From the IMG/VR virus record IMGVR_UViG_3300032241_001711, positions 1 to 26,837 of that record: DNA of 26,837 nt. One strand, 5' to 3'. Of the stretch, positions 2,816 through 18,685 are shown one piece after another; the stretch's first letter is position 1, and each line of letters opens with the position of its first letter. Source of the stretch: a virus. The notes under the pieces are model-generated. The model was given only the letters and a program-made list of their open reading frames with translations. It did no database searches and had not been told where the DNA came from. Made by a program: the position numbers and the translations under genes.

Positions 2816-4300
2816 ATGCAAGTTCCTAAGTTTAAAGACTTTATAAACGAAGCAAGACAACAAGATGAAACCGATCCGATTACGGTTGTCATTATTAGTA
2901 AGTCATCACCTAAAGTAAAACAACAAAAATCAGGTAATAAAAAAACTAAAAAAGAAGTTACGGTTAGTTTTATACAACAGTCTTGTGAAAAAAGAAAAAT
3001 ACCTTGTTATTTAATCAATACTAAGTTTTCAATCATTACAGATAAAGACGAAGAAAAAAATACATTAACAATTTATAACTACGATGGTGAAGATAGTAAA
3101 CAAACTTTTGTAGGTAAAAATACAGTTGTTATTACTCGTGCAGGTGCAGTAGAAGATGAGGCAGGATTATCTTTAATATCAGCATTTCAAAATTCTGGTG
3201 CATTTATGTTAAACACTAGATCGTCAATGTTAACATGCGACAATAAATTAACTTCTGCATTATTATTTGAAAAGTTTAATATACCTACACCTAAAACTGC
3301 ATTTGTATCAAATGAAAAAAATCTTGAAAATGCATTAAAACTTGTAGGCAATAAATTTCCAGTTATAGTAAAAACATTAACAGGTACACAAGGTATTGGA
3401 GTTGTTAAAGTAGATAGTTATGATTCTTTAGTATCAGTAGTACAAGCATTATTTAAACATGATGCAGAATTATTATTACAAGAATATATGCCAACAGATT
3501 TTGACGTTAGAACTTTTGTAGTAGATAATAAAATATTTGCATGTACAAAAAGAGTTAAAAAATCAGGAGAGTTTAGATCAAATGTTCATCGTGGTGCAGT
3601 TGCAGAACCACATAAACTTTCAGATAAAGAAATTGAAATTGTATTAAGAACCGCTCGTGCTACAAAGGCTTATCTTGTAGGCATAGATCATATAATATAC
3701 AAAGACAAAATTTATGTATTAGAAGCAAATGGTTCTCCAGGAACTGGTGCAGATTACGAAGGATATCACTACGAAGATTATATTGACACACCTGATACAA
3801 CTGGTCCAATTAAAGGTAGTCAGTTAGTAGATAATGTAATTAAATATATTTCAAATCGTAAAAATTGGGACAGACAATCAATTATAGAAGTAGGTTATTT
3901 AGAAACAATAGATTTATCTACTGTAGGTAAAGTAAGAGCAAAATTAGATACAGGTAATGGTGCAGAAGCTTGTGCGTTACATGCTGAAGATATAGAAATT
4001 AAAGATGGTAAAGTATCTTGGAAATATAATGGTAAAAAACATTCAAGTAAATTAGAAGGTTATTTAAAAATATTTAGAGCAAACACAGATGATGGTGCAG
4101 GTGAAAAAAGACCTATAGTTAAATTGGATATGACATTTAATGGTTTTACATACAAAGATGTATTGTTTAGTTTAGATGAAAGAAAAAGATCAGCATCAGA
4201 CGCATTATTAAATAGAGATGTAATTCGTAAAATGAACGCATCTGTAAATCCTAATAGAGAGTTTGTGTTAAGTAGAAGAATTAAACCAATTGACAAATAA
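2816..4300 (+). CDS. RimK-like ATP-grasp ligase fused to RimB-like retropepsin domain
   Basis: 494 residues in three parts. Residues 1-22 form a capsid-targeting-like N-terminus (KFKDFINEA, gp21-type site INE/A at 10-13). Residues of roughly 25-345 are an ATP-grasp ligase: glycine-rich loop TLTGTQGIG (about 187-195), LLLQEY, DVRTFVV, and the RimK signature LEANGSPG (302-309). Residues of about 362-494 resemble the ATP-dependent zinc protease/RimB family: VGYLETIDL, AKLDTG with the retropepsin Asp at 378, and LLNRDVIRKMN (464-474). RimK adds glutamates to ribosomal protein S6 and RimB trims such tails, so writer and eraser activities may be joined here; the substrate is inference. It follows regA without a gap and precedes a promoter. 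Confidence 0.85.
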   Translation: MQVPKFKDFINEARQQDETDPITVVIISKSSPKVKQQKSGNKKTKKEVTVSFIQQSCEKRKIPCYLINTKFSIITDKDEEKNTLTIYNYDGEDSKQTFVGKNTVVITRAGAVEDEAGLSLISAFQNSGAFMLNTRSSMLTCDNKLTSALLFEKFNIPTPKTAFVSNEKNLENALKLVGNKFPVIVKTLTGTQGIGVVKVDSYDSLVSVVQALFKHDAELLLQEYMPTDFDVRTFVVDNKIFACTKRVKKSGEFRSNVHRGAVAEPHKLSDKEIEIVLRTARATKAYLVGIDHIIYKDKIYVLEANGSPGTGADYEGYHYEDYIDTPDTTGPIKGSQLVDNVIKYISNRKNWDRQSIIEVGYLETIDLSTVGKVRAKLDTGNGAEACALHAEDIEIKDGKVSWKYNGKKHSSKLEGYLKIFRANTDDGAGEKRPIVKLDMTFNGFTYKDVLFSLDERKRSASDALLNRDVIRKMNASVNPNREFVLSRRIKPIDK

Positions 4301-7486: not shown

Positions 7487-7515
7487 TTGATTTTTAAAAG
7501 AAAGTATAGTATAAT
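7487..7515 (+). promoter_or_regulatory. sigma70-like promoter of the methyltransferase/CmoA unit
   Basis: TTGATT at 7487-7492, 17-bp spacer, TATAAT at 7510-7515 (10 of 12 consensus positions). The expected start, about 7521-7522, coincides with the ATG at 7521, and there is no ribosome site between -10 and ATG. This predicts a leaderless message for the DNA methyltransferase. Confidence 0.7.
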
Positions 7516-7520
7516 AAAGT

Positions 7521-8675
7521 ATGAAATATAAAGAATATTATTTAAAAGATGTTCTTGCAGGTGAAAAAAAATCACTGTTTACTGTAGTATCTACGTTTGC
7601 AGGAGGTGGAGGTTCATCAACAGGATATCGTTTAGCAGGAGGAAAAATATTAGCAATAAATGAGTTTGTAGAAGAAGCAAGAAAAACTTATAATGCTAAT
7701 TATCCAACTACTCTTATAATACCAGATGATATTAAAAAGTTAACAGGTAAAAGTATTTTAAAACAAGTGAAGTTAAAAGAAAAAGAATTAGATATATTAG
7801 ATGGTTCGCCACCATGTTCTGCATTTAGTGTTGCAGGTTCATTATCTCATGGTGAAGGCAATACGCATAAAGATGGATTTGGTAAAACAAAACAATATTC
7901 AGATATAGATGAAGTAACTAATGTTGAAGATTTATTTTTTGAATTTTTAAGAATAGCAAAAGATATTAAACCTAAAATAATTATAGGTGAAAATGTTAAA
8001 GGTTTGACAATAGGAGAAGCAGTAAATTACTATCATAAAATATTAAATACTTTTGAAAGTATTGGATATTATGTAACATCTAAAGTTTTATCTTCAAAAA
8101 ATTTTGGAGTTCCACAATCAAGAGAAAGAACATTTTTTATAGCAGTAAGAGAAGACGTTGCTGACAAATTAGGAATAAGTTTTTTAAATATGTCATCTTT
8201 ATTTCCAAAAGAAAATGATGAGATAGTTACATTAGGAGAAGCAATTGATGGTATTGATAATGATAAAGAAGAAGTGCAAATGTTATTAGATTCATTAGGC
8301 CCAGAAAAAGCAGCAGGATTAACTTTATCAAAGATGCCAAAAAATCCTAATAAAATATTAACTGGAATGGATTACCATCCAAAGAAACATCATTTTAATT
8401 TAAAAAGAACAAGTAGTAAACTTCCATGTCCAACAATTACTGCAATGGGTAATTTTGCTAGTTTTCCTGGAGTATGTCATTACGGAGAAGATAGAAAGTT
8501 TACAATAAAAGAATTAAAAAGAATTATGTCATTACCAGAAGATTATATCTTAACAGGAAAACATAATAAACAATCAGAACGAATTGGACGAATGGTTCCT
8601 CCATATATGATGAGGGCCATTGCAGAATCCGTTTATAGTAAAGTATTAAAACCATATAAGGAGTTAAATGACTAA
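7521..8675 (+). CDS. C5-cytosine DNA methyltransferase family, motif X Asn replaced by Arg
   Basis: 384 residues with the full set of cytosine-C5 motifs: I FAGGGGSSTG (26-35), IV GSPPCSAFSVAG with nucleophile C99, VI ENVKG (157-161), VIII QSRER (199-203), IX (RTSSKLPCPTITAMG), and X near the end. Motif X normally reads IGNxVPP; here it is IGRMVPP with Arg at 357 (codon CGA 8589-8591). That residue lies by the SAM pocket, and a basic residue there could hold a carboxylate. The last 8 bases overlap the CmoA-like gene, supporting a joint role in transferring a carboxymethyl group to cytosine; this is inference. Otherwise it is an ordinary 5mC methyltransferase. The start ATG sits at the predicted transcription start. 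Confidence 0.93.
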   Translation: MKYKEYYLKDVLAGEKKSLFTVVSTFAGGGGSSTGYRLAGGKILAINEFVEEARKTYNANYPTTLIIPDDIKKLTGKSILKQVKLKEKELDILDGSPPCSAFSVAGSLSHGEGNTHKDGFGKTKQYSDIDEVTNVEDLFFEFLRIAKDIKPKIIIGENVKGLTIGEAVNYYHKILNTFESIGYYVTSKVLSSKNFGVPQSRERTFFIAVREDVADKLGISFLNMSSLFPKENDEIVTLGEAIDGIDNDKEEVQMLLDSLGPEKAAGLTLSKMPKNPNKILTGMDYHPKKHHFNLKRTSSKLPCPTITAMGNFASFPGVCHYGEDRKFTIKELKRIMSLPEDYILTGKHNKQSERIGRMVPPYMMRAIAESVYSKVLKPYKELND

Positions 8676-9345
8676 ATTTACGTTTGCAACATCAGAAGAA
8701 GGATTTGATAATCATATAGAAAATTCAGTAAGAGGTTATAACAATCTTTGGAATGATGTATTATCAATGTCAAAATACTTTATTGAAGATAATACAAACG
8801 TAATTGATATAGGTTGTTCTACAGGTAAATTATTAAAATCAATGATAGATCAAAATAAAAAACATATACCAAAAGCAAGTTATACTGGTATAGAAATAGA
8901 AGAAGATTTTTTTAAACATTACGATAAAGATATAAACAAATATCCAGAATTATCTTTTTATAGAGATGATGTTAGACAATATGAATTTGTAAATTGTAGT
9001 TTAGTAACATCAATTTTTACATTGCAATTTATGCCACCCAAAGATAGAGAATATACAATTAATAAAATATATCAAGGTTTAAATCATGGCGGTGCATTTA
9101 TTTTTTCAGAAAAAACTTTTAGTTGCGATCCTCAAGTACAAGATATGATGACATTTATGTATTATGATTATAAAAGAAAAAGTTTTAGCGAAAAAGAAAT
9201 ATTAAATAAAGAAGTACAACTAAGACATATGATGAAACCTAATACTAAAAATGAAATTTTTGACATGCTTGATAAGGCAGGTTTTAAACATCATGTCTTT
9301 TGGCAGAATTTTAATTTCGTAGGGATTATTGCATTAAAGAAATAA
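8668..9345 (+). CDS. cmoA: CmoA-like carboxy-S-adenosyl-L-methionine synthase
   Basis: 225 residues, class I SAM fold. It follows bacterial CmoA almost block for block: SVRGYNNL (about 20-27), VIDIGCSTG (about 45-53), the long block FTLQFMPPKDRE then KIYQGLNHGGAFIFSEK (about 116-148), YDYKR, SEKEI-x2-KE, a DKAGF helix, and the end WQNFNFVGIIALK. CmoA converts SAM and prephenate to carboxy-SAM, which CmoB uses on tRNA U34. No CmoB is seen in the window. The Arg I recall as contacting the carboxylate in E. coli CmoA (R199) seems to align with Glu here (about 181), with an Arg one turn later, so activity needs proof. It has an AAGGAG ribosome site and overlaps the DNA methyltransferase by 8 bases. 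Confidence 0.85.
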   Translation: MTKFTFATSEEGFDNHIENSVRGYNNLWNDVLSMSKYFIEDNTNVIDIGCSTGKLLKSMIDQNKKHIPKASYTGIEIEEDFFKHYDKDINKYPELSFYRDDVRQYEFVNCSLVTSIFTLQFMPPKDREYTINKIYQGLNHGGAFIFSEKTFSCDPQVQDMMTFMYYDYKRKSFSEKEILNKEVQLRHMMKPNTKNEIFDMLDKAGFKHHVFWQNFNFVGIIALKK

Positions 9346-9409: not shown

Positions 9410-9871
9410 ATGGAACAGAATAAACTTTTAATACACAAACATTTAATTATTAGAGCCGAAGTGAAAAATCCCCCAAAAAACGAAGAACAATTAACGCAAT
9501 GGTTGAAAAACTTTATTTCTTTTATAGATATGAAGGTCTTGATGGGGCCGTATGTAAAGTATTGTGATACACCTGGTAATCGAGGTATTACTGGAGTTGC
9601 AGTCATAGAAACAAGTCATATTGCAATGCACGTTTGGGACGAAACTGATCCCGGGATAATGCAGTTTGACGTTTATAGTTGCTCAGAATTTGATCCATAC
9701 AAGATTGCAGATAAACTTCAAGCTGATTTTGATGTAGTTAAATTAGATTATAAATTCCTTAATAGAGAAACGGAATTAAAACCAATAAGACTTAAAAAAG
9801 ATACAATGAAAAATTATGCAAATAGTATTAATAGACCAGTTTCAGAATCCACCATATACAATATCGCCTGA
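9410..9871 (+). CDS. speD: SpeD-like pyruvoyl-dependent decarboxylase (AdoMetDC family)
   Basis: 153 residues. The core ETSHIAMHVWDE and the following FDVYSC match the SpeD proenzyme family: Ser69 would be the self-cleavage residue that becomes pyruvoyl, His74 the processing His (same Ser+5 spacing as T. maritima), and Cys91 the proton donor. The residue before Ser is Thr rather than the usual Glu. AdoMetDC makes decarboxylated SAM for spermidine; some phage SpeD homologues have shifted to arginine or ornithine, so the substrate is unproved. It is preceded by a late promoter although it sits among early genes, which fits a role in polyamine supply for DNA packaging. The ribosome site (GAGAGA) is weak. 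Confidence 0.82.
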   Translation: MEQNKLLIHKHLIIRAEVKNPPKNEEQLTQWLKNFISFIDMKVLMGPYVKYCDTPGNRGITGVAVIETSHIAMHVWDETDPGIMQFDVYSCSEFDPYKIADKLQADFDVVKLDYKFLNRETELKPIRLKKDTMKNYANSINRPVSESTIYNIA

Positions 9872-14907: not shown

Positions 14908-16131
14908 ATGTTTAGTTTTAAAGGATTTATAACAAGCGGTGGTAAAAAAAATACACACCTAGAACATTTAGAAGATTCAATAATAGATCGAGGGCAAAAA
15001 GGAGCTCGAGATGCTATATTCTTTATTAAATCAATAAGAAAAATGTTACAAGGTCACGTTGGTGGTCGTTTAAATGTAACAGTTAAATGGGATGGAGCAC
15101 CATCTATTATTTGTGGTGTTAATCCAGAAAATCATAAGTTCTTTGTAGGTACAAAATCAGTCTTTAATAAAACTCCAAAACTTAATTATACAACAGGTGA
15201 TATTAGAAAAAATCACGAAGGTGTTCTTGCAACTAAATTAGAAATTTGTTTAAGAGAATTATCTAAACTAGGTATTCAAGGTATTGTACAAGGTGATTTA
15301 TTATTTACAAAAGGCGATGTAAAAACTGCAACAATAGATGATGAAGACTGTTATGTTTTTACTCCAAATACAATTACTTATGCAGTGCCTGTTAAAAGTG
15401 ATTTGGGTCGTAGAATAGGTAGAGCTAGATTAGGTATTGTATTTCATACAATGTACACAGGCAGAGATATGCAAAATTTGTCTGCAAGTTTTGGTTCTAT
15501 TAAAGGTTTTCCAAAAATGCCTTCTATATTTGTTACAGATGCAGTTTATAAAGATGAATCCGGTACAGTTACATTTAATAATTCAGAACTTTCACAAGTA
15601 GATAGTATAATTGCGATGGCAGAAGGTTCTCTATCAAAATGTGCATCATTTTTAGATACACTATTGACAAATGATCCTTTAACAGTAGGATATAAATTAA
15701 AATCATTTTTTAATTTCGTTATCAAAACTCAAGGAGAGTTTGGTAAAATAAAAGAACTAATGACTGAATTTAGACAGTATTTTATAATTATGTTACAAAA
15801 AGAAATAGACGCAGTAACAAGAGAAGAAACAAAAAACAAATATAGAAAAATAAGAGAAGGTGGTTTAGATTTTATAGATAGAAATCAATCACAATTATAT
15901 TTTGCGATGGCTACATATATGTCATTGCAAAGAGCAAAAAACTTTTTAATAAACAAAATGAATAAAATTCAAAGTATTGGTACATTTATGAGAACACCTA
16001 ATGGATTTAGAACAACAAATCCTGAAGGTTATGTTGCCATAGATCGTGTCAAAGGTGCAGTTAAACTTGTAGATAGATTAGAGTTTAGTCGTGCTAATTT
16101 TACAGTTGCCAAGGACTGGCTGAAAGGATAA
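14908..16131 (+). CDS. DUF6267-like protein with nucleotidyltransferase/ligase-like core
   Basis: 407 residues. It belongs to a family common in marine T4-like phages, recognisable by KNTHLEHLEDS (14-24), GARDAIFFIKSIRKML, TVKWDGAPSI (58-67), VQGDLLF (127-133) and FTPNTITYAVPV. KWDG (60-63) looks like motif I of the DNA/RNA ligase superfamily (K-x-D-G, where Lys is adenylated), and the later GDLLF and EGVLATKLE fit other motif positions loosely; ligase activity is unproved. The N-terminus MFSFKGFI resembles the capsid-targeting type but lacks the usual Glu, so cleavage there is not expected. A GAGAGG ribosome site precedes the ATG. Confidence 0.8.
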   Translation: MFSFKGFITSGGKKNTHLEHLEDSIIDRGQKGARDAIFFIKSIRKMLQGHVGGRLNVTVKWDGAPSIICGVNPENHKFFVGTKSVFNKTPKLNYTTGDIRKNHEGVLATKLEICLRELSKLGIQGIVQGDLLFTKGDVKTATIDDEDCYVFTPNTITYAVPVKSDLGRRIGRARLGIVFHTMYTGRDMQNLSASFGSIKGFPKMPSIFVTDAVYKDESGTVTFNNSELSQVDSIIAMAEGSLSKCASFLDTLLTNDPLTVGYKLKSFFNFVIKTQGEFGKIKELMTEFRQYFIIMLQKEIDAVTREETKNKYRKIREGGLDFIDRNQSQLYFAMATYMSLQRAKNFLINKMNKIQSIGTFMRTPNGFRTTNPEGYVAIDRVKGAVKLVDRLEFSRANFTVAKDWLKG

Positions 16132-16132
16132 A

Positions 16133-16477
16133 ATGAAAACATTTAAAGACTACGAAAAAATAGATGCAATATGCGAAGCAATGAAATGGGAAGAACTATT
16201 AGAAGAAGAAGCGGAACACGAAGGTAAAAAAGTTACTTTAAACAAACCTCATAGGACATCAGGTGGCCCTAAAAAATTTTCAGTATATGTTAAAAACGAC
16301 AAAGGTAATGTTGTTAAGGTAAACTTTGGAGATCCAAATATGGAAATTAAACGAGATGATCCTGCAAGACGCAAATCATTTAGAGCAAGACATGGTTGTG
16401 ATAATCCAGGCCCTAAATGGAAAGCAAATTATTGGTCATGCAGACAATGGAGAGCAGGAGCAAAAGTAGAAGATTAA
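16133..16477 (+). CDS. conserved late protein with capsid-targeting-like N-terminus
   Basis: 114 residues. The N-terminus MKTFKDYEKIDAICEA matches the T4 internal-protein type (T4: MKTYQEFIAEA) and contains a gp21-type site ICE/A (13-16). The mature part (GKKVTLNKPHRTSGGPKKFS, VYVKNDKGNVVKVNFGDPNM, RKSFRARHGCD, YWSCRQW) is a distinctive conserved module of marine phages. Its two C-terminal Cys and several His might bind metal. The biochemical role is unknown to me. It sits tightly between two nucleotidyltransferase-like genes in the late block. Confidence 0.82.
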   Translation: MKTFKDYEKIDAICEAMKWEELLEEEAEHEGKKVTLNKPHRTSGGPKKFSVYVKNDKGNVVKVNFGDPNMEIKRDDPARRKSFRARHGCDNPGPKWKANYWSCRQWRAGAKVED

Positions 16478-18685
16478 ATGTTTAAACTAATACAAGAATC
16501 TGTAGTAGATATACCTAGACGTACTTACGCTAAAGATATATTTGATTATGCAGATACAGAAGAACCAAAATTAAAACAGTCTGTATTGAACATAATCAAT
16601 GCACAATTAGATAAATTTAATTCAATTTATCCAATTAAAAAATATAGTTTAGTAGGTTCATCTATTACAAAACAATATCGAAACGATGCAGATTTAGATG
16701 TCAATGTTTTATTTGACGTAGCACCTGCAGATAGAGAAGCCGTTCGATTAATGTTATCGCATCAATTAAAAGATATAAATGGTAAATTAATTCCAGGAAC
16801 AAAACACCCTATAAATTATTATATCATTACTGATCCTTTTATTAAAGAAACTAATGATGCTATGGCAGATGGTGTATTTGATATTAAAAATAATACATGG
16901 ATAAGAAAACCAAAAGAATTTAAATTTGATCCACAAAAATATGCATCAGATTTTGAAAAAAAAGTAAAAGAAATTGATGTTGCAGAAGGTGAATTAAAAA
17001 GAGATATTATAGATTATGAAGATTTAAAAGAATTAACTACAGATGATGTTTTAAATTTACATGAAATTATAAATGAAAAATTAACTAAAATAGATGATGA
17101 TATTAAACATATAATTGCTATAGGTGACGATGTAGTTAAAGCTAGACGAGATGCTTTTGCAACAGATATGACACCAGATGAAATTAGAACATTTGGTAAA
17201 AAGAATTTGTTACCTAAAAATGTTATCTATAAGATGTTAGAAAAATATCATTATTTAAAATTATATCATCATTTAAAAGATATTTTACACGATGGTAAAA
17301 TTACAGACGCAGAAATACGTTCTATACAGACGGAAGATAAAGAAAATGATACAGTAATGATGTATAAGTTAACAGGCAAAGCAATGAAGGCTGTGCCTGG
17401 TTCTATAATACAAAAAGAAATTATAAAACAATTAAATGTTTACAGAAAAAAATTAGGCATGGAACCTATAACAGAAGCAACAAATAAGTCACTTGCATTT
17501 ACTTTTGGTCGATTTAATCCACCTACTATAGGACACGAATTACTAATTAAAAAAATTGCATCATTAGGTATGGATTATAAAATATTTTTAAGCAGATCAT
17601 ACGATCCTGCAAAAAATCCATTATCTCCAGCTGACAAATTAAAATGGTTGCAAACAATATTTAAATATAATGCAAGTCATATAATGATTATGCCTACTAA
17701 TATGATATTAGAATTAGCAACAAAAATTTATAATATGGGTTATACTAATATAACAATGATAGTAGGTAGTGATAGAGTAAGAGAATTTGATACAATATTA
17801 AAAAAATATAATGGAGAAAAAAACAGACATGGATATTATAAATTTACAAAAATTAATGTAGTATCAGCAGGAGAAAGAGATCCTGATGAAGAAGGCGTTT
17901 CAGGAATGAGTGCAAGTAAATTAAGAGAATATGTAAAACGAGGAGATTTTAAAAATTTTAAAAGAGGTATACCAGGAAATTTATCTGATAAACAATTAAA
18001 AGATTTATTTTTTGATGTAAGAAAAGGAATGGGATTATCTATTAGATTAGCTGCAGAAGTAGAAACAAATAATAAACTTAAAACACTAAAAGAATTTGAA
18101 ACTCAACAAGTAAGAGATTTGTATTTAAGAGAAATGATATTTAATATTAATGAACAAGCACACAATATTAAATTAGATATAAAAGGAAAAGTAGTAAGAC
18201 GAGGAACAAATTATATTGTAATAGAAGATACAAATAACAATTTACACAAATCATGGATTTGGGATTGCATACCTATTGCAGCAGATAGAGAAATAGAAGT
18301 TAGAGAATATAATTTAAACGTTGATTACGGATTTCAAGCCGTATCAGAAATTAAGGAATCAATAAAAATGAATGATGAAAAAAAAGAAGGTTATGATATA
18401 GGACATGATTGGGCACAACATACTGCTAAAATGACACCAGGTGAACCACAATATGATCCAAATTATTTAAAAAAACAAAATACACCTGAAGAAAACATGT
18501 ATAAACCAAGTAAACCAACTGAAAATACAACACAAATTTCAACACAAGAAATAGAAGATTGGTCACTTGCAAAAGATACATTAGATAAATATAGAGAAAG
18601 ATACGGTGATAATTATCAGTCTAAAATAGACGAAGTAAAAAAGAAAATGATGTCTTTTAAAGATTTTAATAAGGATAAAAAATAA
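16478..18685 (+). CDS. two-enzyme protein: Pol-beta-type nucleotidyltransferase plus NMNAT-like cytidylyltransferase
   Basis: 735 residues. The first part (about 20-320) has a Pol-beta-type nucleotidyltransferase motif: VGSSITKQYRNDADLDVNV (G-S-x-n-D-x-D). Residues 331-334 are ITEA, an ideal gp21-type cleavage site. The second domain (about 338-530) is an HxGH-type adenylyl/cytidylyltransferase: GRFNPPTIGH (344-353), VGSDRV, and MSASKLREYV, the ISxTxxR-like phosphate motif; closest in style to NMN adenylyltransferases. The C-terminal 200 residues are mixed, with further possible cleavage sites and a charged tail ending in FKDFNKDKK. The start MFKLIQES fits a degenerate targeting peptide. Roles in NAD or nucleotide metabolism are inferred. 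Confidence 0.83.
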   Translation: MFKLIQESVVDIPRRTYAKDIFDYADTEEPKLKQSVLNIINAQLDKFNSIYPIKKYSLVGSSITKQYRNDADLDVNVLFDVAPADREAVRLMLSHQLKDINGKLIPGTKHPINYYIITDPFIKETNDAMADGVFDIKNNTWIRKPKEFKFDPQKYASDFEKKVKEIDVAEGELKRDIIDYEDLKELTTDDVLNLHEIINEKLTKIDDDIKHIIAIGDDVVKARRDAFATDMTPDEIRTFGKKNLLPKNVIYKMLEKYHYLKLYHHLKDILHDGKITDAEIRSIQTEDKENDTVMMYKLTGKAMKAVPGSIIQKEIIKQLNVYRKKLGMEPITEATNKSLAFTFGRFNPPTIGHELLIKKIASLGMDYKIFLSRSYDPAKNPLSPADKLKWLQTIFKYNASHIMIMPTNMILELATKIYNMGYTNITMIVGSDRVREFDTILKKYNGEKNRHGYYKFTKINVVSAGERDPDEEGVSGMSASKLREYVKRGDFKNFKRGIPGNLSDKQLKDLFFDVRKGMGLSIRLAAEVETNNKLKTLKEFETQQVRDLYLREMIFNINEQAHNIKLDIKGKVVRRGTNYIVIEDTNNNLHKSWIWDCIPIAADREIEVREYNLNVDYGFQAVSEIKESIKMNDEKKEGYDIGHDWAQHTAKMTPGEPQYDPNYLKKQNTPEENMYKPSKPTENTTQISTQEIEDWSLAKDTLDKYRERYGDNYQSKIDEVKKKMMSFKDFNKDKK

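Follow-up and report, generated by a model that had tools for sequence, protein, structure and literature searches.

A cmoX–cmoA gene pair in a T4-like phage as a probable DNA carboxymethylation module

An overlapping pair of phage genes, cmoX and cmoA, very probably constitutes a DNA carboxymethylation module that makes 5-carboxymethylcytosine (5cxmC) in phage DNA; we put the probability of this reading at about 0.93. For the pair itself the assignment is based on homology, diagnostic residues, gene order and co-occurrence, while the chemistry has been demonstrated for the homologous system of Synechococcus phage S-B43. The DNA that we analysed (the window) comes from a T4-like phage; this fragment measures 26,837 bases and has 28% GC. 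It encodes, in this order, the sliding clamp, the clamp loader, RegA-like and RimK-like proteins, a ferredoxin, PolB, CmoX, CmoA, a SpeD-like protein, UvsX and a DnaB-like helicase, the clamp-loader and RegA-like labels being taken from similarity to annotated genes of Synechococcus phage S-CRM01. The pair is thus flanked by polB on one side and by the speD-like gene and uvsX on the other. cmoX (7521–8675, 384 amino acids), cmoA (8668–9345, 225 amino acids) and the speD-like gene (9410–9871) all lie on the plus strand, as do the sites within them given below. Scans of the window for Rfam families, tRNAs and tandem repeats gave no result relevant to the pair.

A natural 5-carboxymethylcytosine system was described in phage S-B43 in December 2025 (Yang et al., Nat Commun 2025;17:281; PMC12783734), and its chemistry is backed by biochemistry, a crystal structure and analysis of virion DNA. 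The CmoA of S-B43 makes carboxy-SAM (Cx-SAM) with a kcat of 2.33 per s, as compared with 0.23 per s for E. coli CmoA. Wild-type S-B43 CmoX takes only Cx-SAM and writes 5cxmC at GC, which results in HhaI resistance in vitro; its Arg350, the counterpart of Asn304 in HhaI, touches the carboxymethyl group, and the R350N mutation abolishes activity. In the next step CmoY adds glycine, and virion DNA holds the glycine amide 5gcxmC and no bare 5cxmC. The same study lists 5,615 candidate CmoX proteins in IMG/VR, UniProt and MGnify, with 4,257 CmoA and 2,251 ligases in their genomic context (PMC12783734). In the mechanism that we propose for the window, CmoA would carboxylate SAM with prephenate as the carboxyl donor; CmoX would flip a cytosine (within GC dinucleotides in S-B43), Cys99 would attack C6, and Arg357 would hold the carboxymethyl group of Cx-SAM while it is moved onto C5. 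The resulting 5cxmC would block host restriction nucleases. The initial annotation had arrived at the same use of carboxy-SAM by the transferase, and the idea finds support in the chemistry of the S-B43 homologue, where the base is further ligated to glycine, and in the diagnostic residues of the window proteins. Its novelty is not upheld, since the system was already in print.

The transferase belongs to the C5-cytosine DNA methylase family (PF00145, E 3.7e-54; TIGR00675 above its cut-off) and retains the GSPPC loop, GENV and the RxR-type QSRER of that fold. Its best match in the PDB is 8yf3, the S-B43 CmoX (SpCmoX) with Cx-SAM (E 7e-151, 505 bits), the next structure scoring 76 bits; the alignment spans residues 5–377, with SPPC, ENV and GRMVPP identical. 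Cys99 (codon 7815–7817, in SPPC) aligns exactly with the catalytic Cys98 of S-B43 CmoX and corresponds to Cys81 of HhaI. Arg357 (codon 8589–8591, in the motif X sequence ERIGRMVPP) aligns column for column with S-B43 Arg350, the carboxymethyl-binding position, which is Asn304 in HhaI; the roles of both residues are those established for S-B43 (PMC12783734). All the diagnostic CmoX residues that we tested are present, and the gene keeps the expected company in the form of an overlapping cmoA. Judging by its 62% identity to S-B43 CmoX, the window enzyme would share the GC specificity. The window shows no depletion of GC dinucleotides, with 616 seen against 517 expected.

The best named family for the ORF at 8668–9345 is TIGR00740, CmoA (E 7e-38), although its score of 130.6 bits misses the cut-off of 193.3; the assayed S-B43 CmoA, to which it is 53.5% identical, likewise scores below this cut-off. 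Its best PDB matches by sequence are the E. coli CmoA structures 4gek and 4iwn (E 5e-31), and these also rank first in a fold search with the AlphaFold model of the window protein (mean pLDDT 78). Tyr39, Asp62 and Asp117 of E. coli CmoA, which contact the cofactor, and Glu164 are kept as Y24, D47, D101 and E148. In E. coli CmoA, Arg199 forms a salt bridge to the carboxylate (PMC3663124). This arginine is not in place in the window protein, which has Glu182 at the position (codon 9211–9213) and, one turn further along the helix where E. coli has Glu203, Arg186 (codon 9223–9225). Of 81 distinct phage CmoA sequences, 69 have E/R in place of the R199/E203 pair of E. coli and five have the E. coli-like order, so that the two charges have in effect traded places. 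Arg186 likely stands in for Arg199 and would then take the carboxylate contact. The initial annotation was therefore right that the arginine is displaced, but the displacement is no argument against activity: the active S-B43 CmoA carries the same Glu/Arg pair, which means that a strict Arg199 does not define the family. With it the main doubt about the phage CmoA is removed.

The annotation of the two genes as a DNA cytosine methyltransferase and a CmoA-like protein overlapping by 8 bases is borne out; the overlap is exactly ATGACTAA (8668–8675), and a ribosome-binding-like AAGGAG for cmoA lies within the end of cmoX (8658–8663). The overlap supports joint translation and by itself makes co-transcription likely. 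A shared promoter, which had also been proposed, is not supported: the sole good match upstream of the pair (TTGATT-17-TATAAT, 7487–7515) stops 5 bases short of the ATG, and sites resembling promoters occur in the window at chance level (21 versus 18.6 in shuffles). Against the four nearest relatives, dN/dS of about 0.04–0.23 indicates purifying selection on both genes. Divergence from the same relatives is unequal (compared with L002, L003 and L004; cmoX dS 0.22–0.27 and cmoA dS 0.54–0.55 versus L002/L003), which suggests recombination near the cmoX–cmoA junction.

The initial annotation had called for a survey of phage genomes for the same gene pair and for the Arg variant apart from CmoA. 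Our loci came from IMG/VR, where we searched with a single CmoA, four transferases and a single DruA-like protein, and from annotated phages; transferases were typed by the residue in the Arg357 column. CmoA is present in the fetched DNA of 85 of 90 distinct Arg-type transferases. All five remaining cases have an explanation: in four the contig breaks off within the gene or at its end, and the fifth comes from an Erwinia jumbo phage whose CmoA is encoded elsewhere in the genome. Among 58 distinct Leu-type relatives CmoA was never seen, and 50 of them are accompanied by a TET/JBP oxygenase homologue. Since CmoA itself served to gather part of the sample, and since the Arg-type and Leu-type enzymes fall into two clades, the link between Arg and CmoA does not represent many independent events. 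There are also exceptions: in the staphylococcal phages SPbeta-like and vB-SscS-F1 the partner of CmoA is a Gly-type C5-transferase, and the arginine is accordingly not the whole story. In these loci (L085, 5983–7682; L086, 5950–8468) motif X of the transferase reads VVGGVI, and a CmoY-like ligase is present as well in F1. If the Gly-type enzymes make 5cxmC, a definition of CmoX based on the arginine overlooks them.

These data bear on whether the two proteins act together at all. As the initial annotation had allowed, they might do separate jobs, the transferase making plain 5mC and CmoA boosting the wobble modification of host tRNA; the known use of bacterial CmoA is indeed cmo5U synthesis via CmoB, and related phage genes bear the annotation 'tRNA methyltransferase'. 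However, Arg357 occupies the carboxymethyl-binding position, Arg-type enzymes track CmoA, and CmoB is missing: as the initial annotation had noted for this DNA, no CmoB (PF08003) was found in the window, and we find none in the complete genomes of S-CRM01 and S-B43 or in two related contigs, with the E. coli control positive. Wild-type S-B43 CmoX, moreover, takes only Cx-SAM, and together with the lack of CmoB this makes a division of labour very unlikely. Even less probable is a larger operon of SAM chemistry, in which the SpeD-like protein, via decarboxylated SAM, or the RimK-like ligase would further modify the same base. The speD-like gene does lie directly downstream of the pair, and the RimK-like gene, which relatives without CmoY also have, 0.7 kb upstream of polB. 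Yet SpeD (PF02675, AdoMet_dc) is present in 13 and absent from 83 of 96 cmoX–cmoA–uvsX loci, and its position is unchanged in over 20 DruA-type loci that lack the pair; it tracks the phage lineage rather than cmoX–cmoA, and we reject it as a third enzyme. RimK, too, occurs without cmoX and cmoA, both in surveyed loci and in Methylophilales phage Melnitz, and is missing from S-CRM01, which leaves it unsupported as a replacement ligase. The KFKDFINEA stretch at the start of the RimK-like protein, which we take to resemble the T4 capsid-targeting peptide, would perhaps suit an ejected virion protein.

With a joint carboxymethylation module as the preferred reading, what matters next is whether 5cxmC is capped. 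Searches for an Asn_synthase domain and for CmoY homologues found neither in the window, and turned up no CmoY-type ligase in seven related contigs of 20–41 kb (five searched by domain model, four by protein) or in the complete 178.6-kb genome of S-CRM01, which has the cmoX–cmoA pair; an amidoligase (PF12224) search gave a silent control. An IMG/VR search for near-complete genomes of the window lineage returned none above 41 kb. Given this pattern, modification in the lineage and in S-CRM01 may stop at bare 5cxmC, in which case the phage as a whole would lack a second step. A ligase unlinked to the pair, CmoY-like or of another family, might instead cap 5cxmC with glycine or another amine from elsewhere in the genome, of which the window covers only 26.8 kb. 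S-B43, with 5gcxmC and no bare 5cxmC in its virions, is the precedent for this, and CmoY-like ligases adjoin cmoX/cmoA in a sister clade (L069–L081, in the order cmoX–cmoY–cmoA), in PaBG and in staphylococcal phage F1. Against capping stand the ligase-free window, related contigs and whole S-CRM01 genome, and we rate it at somewhat below an even chance. In the window lineage, then, either bare 5cxmC may end the pathway or another ligase family may act.

The interval between polB and uvsX holds different genes in different loci: CmoX with CmoA, a C5-methyltransferase with a TET/JBP protein, or a DruA-like protein. Among the surveyed loci, where slot counts depend on the queries used and some contigs were fetched twice, none had CmoX in this interval together with DruA or TET/JBP. 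We tentatively propose, at odds a little short of even, that bare 5cxmC is the final virion base in the window lineage and S-CRM01 and that this slot exchanges DNA-marking chemistries, namely CmoX with CmoA, C5-methyltransferase with TET/JBP, and possibly a DruA-like GNAT protein.

Several of the alternative occupants deserve description. In Methylophilales phage Melnitz-3 (L084, 4010–6194) and in L092–L171, a Leu-type C5-methyltransferase is followed in the slot by a TET/JBP dioxygenase (PF12851, E 4e-11); the annotation there says only 'hypothetical', and the two genes probably give these marine methylophages a route of the 5mC-to-5hmC type. A DruA-like gene (PF14236; GNAT-type fold by model, weak) fills the slot in many relatives (L172–L251 and L037). 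In Pfam, the DruA family formerly went by the name DUF4338. DUF4338 has been described as a GNAT domain (PMC10853773), and a fold search with the DruA-like protein weakly agrees. In L037 (968–2745) the DruA-like gene directly precedes cmoA, at the expected place of cmoX. We considered it as a second user of Cx-SAM and rejected this; CmoA occurs in this contig alone among 81 DruA loci, which more likely reflects a recombinant. In up to 44 loci (L013, 5779–6357, and related) an ORF of one family lies between polB and cmoX. The tested member is an MT-A70 adenine methyltransferase, and such loci may mark adenine and cytosine jointly.

Other genes of the window have features of their own. In the SpeD-like protein, Thr-Ser-His replaces Glu-Ser-His at the expected pyruvoyl cleavage site, and the expected active-site His and Cys are apparently kept. 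The RimK-like gene (2816–4300) encodes an ATP-grasp ligase fused to a zinc-protease-like domain and starts with MQVPKFKDFINEA; similar starts are found at 16133, 23169, 24546, 24860 and 25255. A DUF6267 protein (14908–16131) has a KWDG motif like that of covalent nucleotidyltransferases, and a 735-amino-acid protein (16478–18685) contains a cytidylyltransferase-like domain (PF01467).

An independent reading of this DNA thus confirms a modification that was recognised as natural only in December 2025. It adds the detail of a cmoX–cmoA pair set between polB and uvsX, with no adjacent ligase, in a T4-like lineage of uncultured phages. What goes beyond the published work (PMC12783734) is the lineage that, together with S-CRM01, carries the pair without CmoY, and a polB–uvsX slot that swaps modules. 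What remains of interest is that a capping step is missing and that the slot is exchangeable, and one question has become testable: whether DNA of phages with CmoX and CmoA and without CmoY contains an uncapped, negatively charged base.

Compared with known systems, the window pair is closest to that of S-B43. Both proteins are similar (62% identity for CmoX and 53.5% for CmoA), the genes are clustered in both phages, and the catalytic Cys, the carboxymethyl-binding Arg and the E/R pair of CmoA are common to both. In the window, however, the order is reversed, with cmoX followed by an overlapping cmoA between polB and uvsX, and cmoY is found neither inside the pair nor nearby. S-CRM01 (NC_015569) shares the pair (60% and 54.5% identity) and a complete genome without CmoY, but has cmoA before cmoX, beside regA and outside the polB–uvsX slot. 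Engineered M.MpeI N374K (cited in PMC12783734) accepts Cx-SAM through a basic residue at the same position, although it is a laboratory variant with CG specificity. Phage Melnitz has a C5-methyltransferase in the same slot, 40% identical to the window transferase, but with Leu for Arg, no CmoA and a TET/JBP dioxygenase instead, and hence a different cytosine chemistry. Finally, the bacterial CmoA/CmoB pathway to cmo5U in tRNA likewise uses a CmoA homologue that makes Cx-SAM, whereas the window lacks CmoB and the acceptor here would be a cytosine in DNA.
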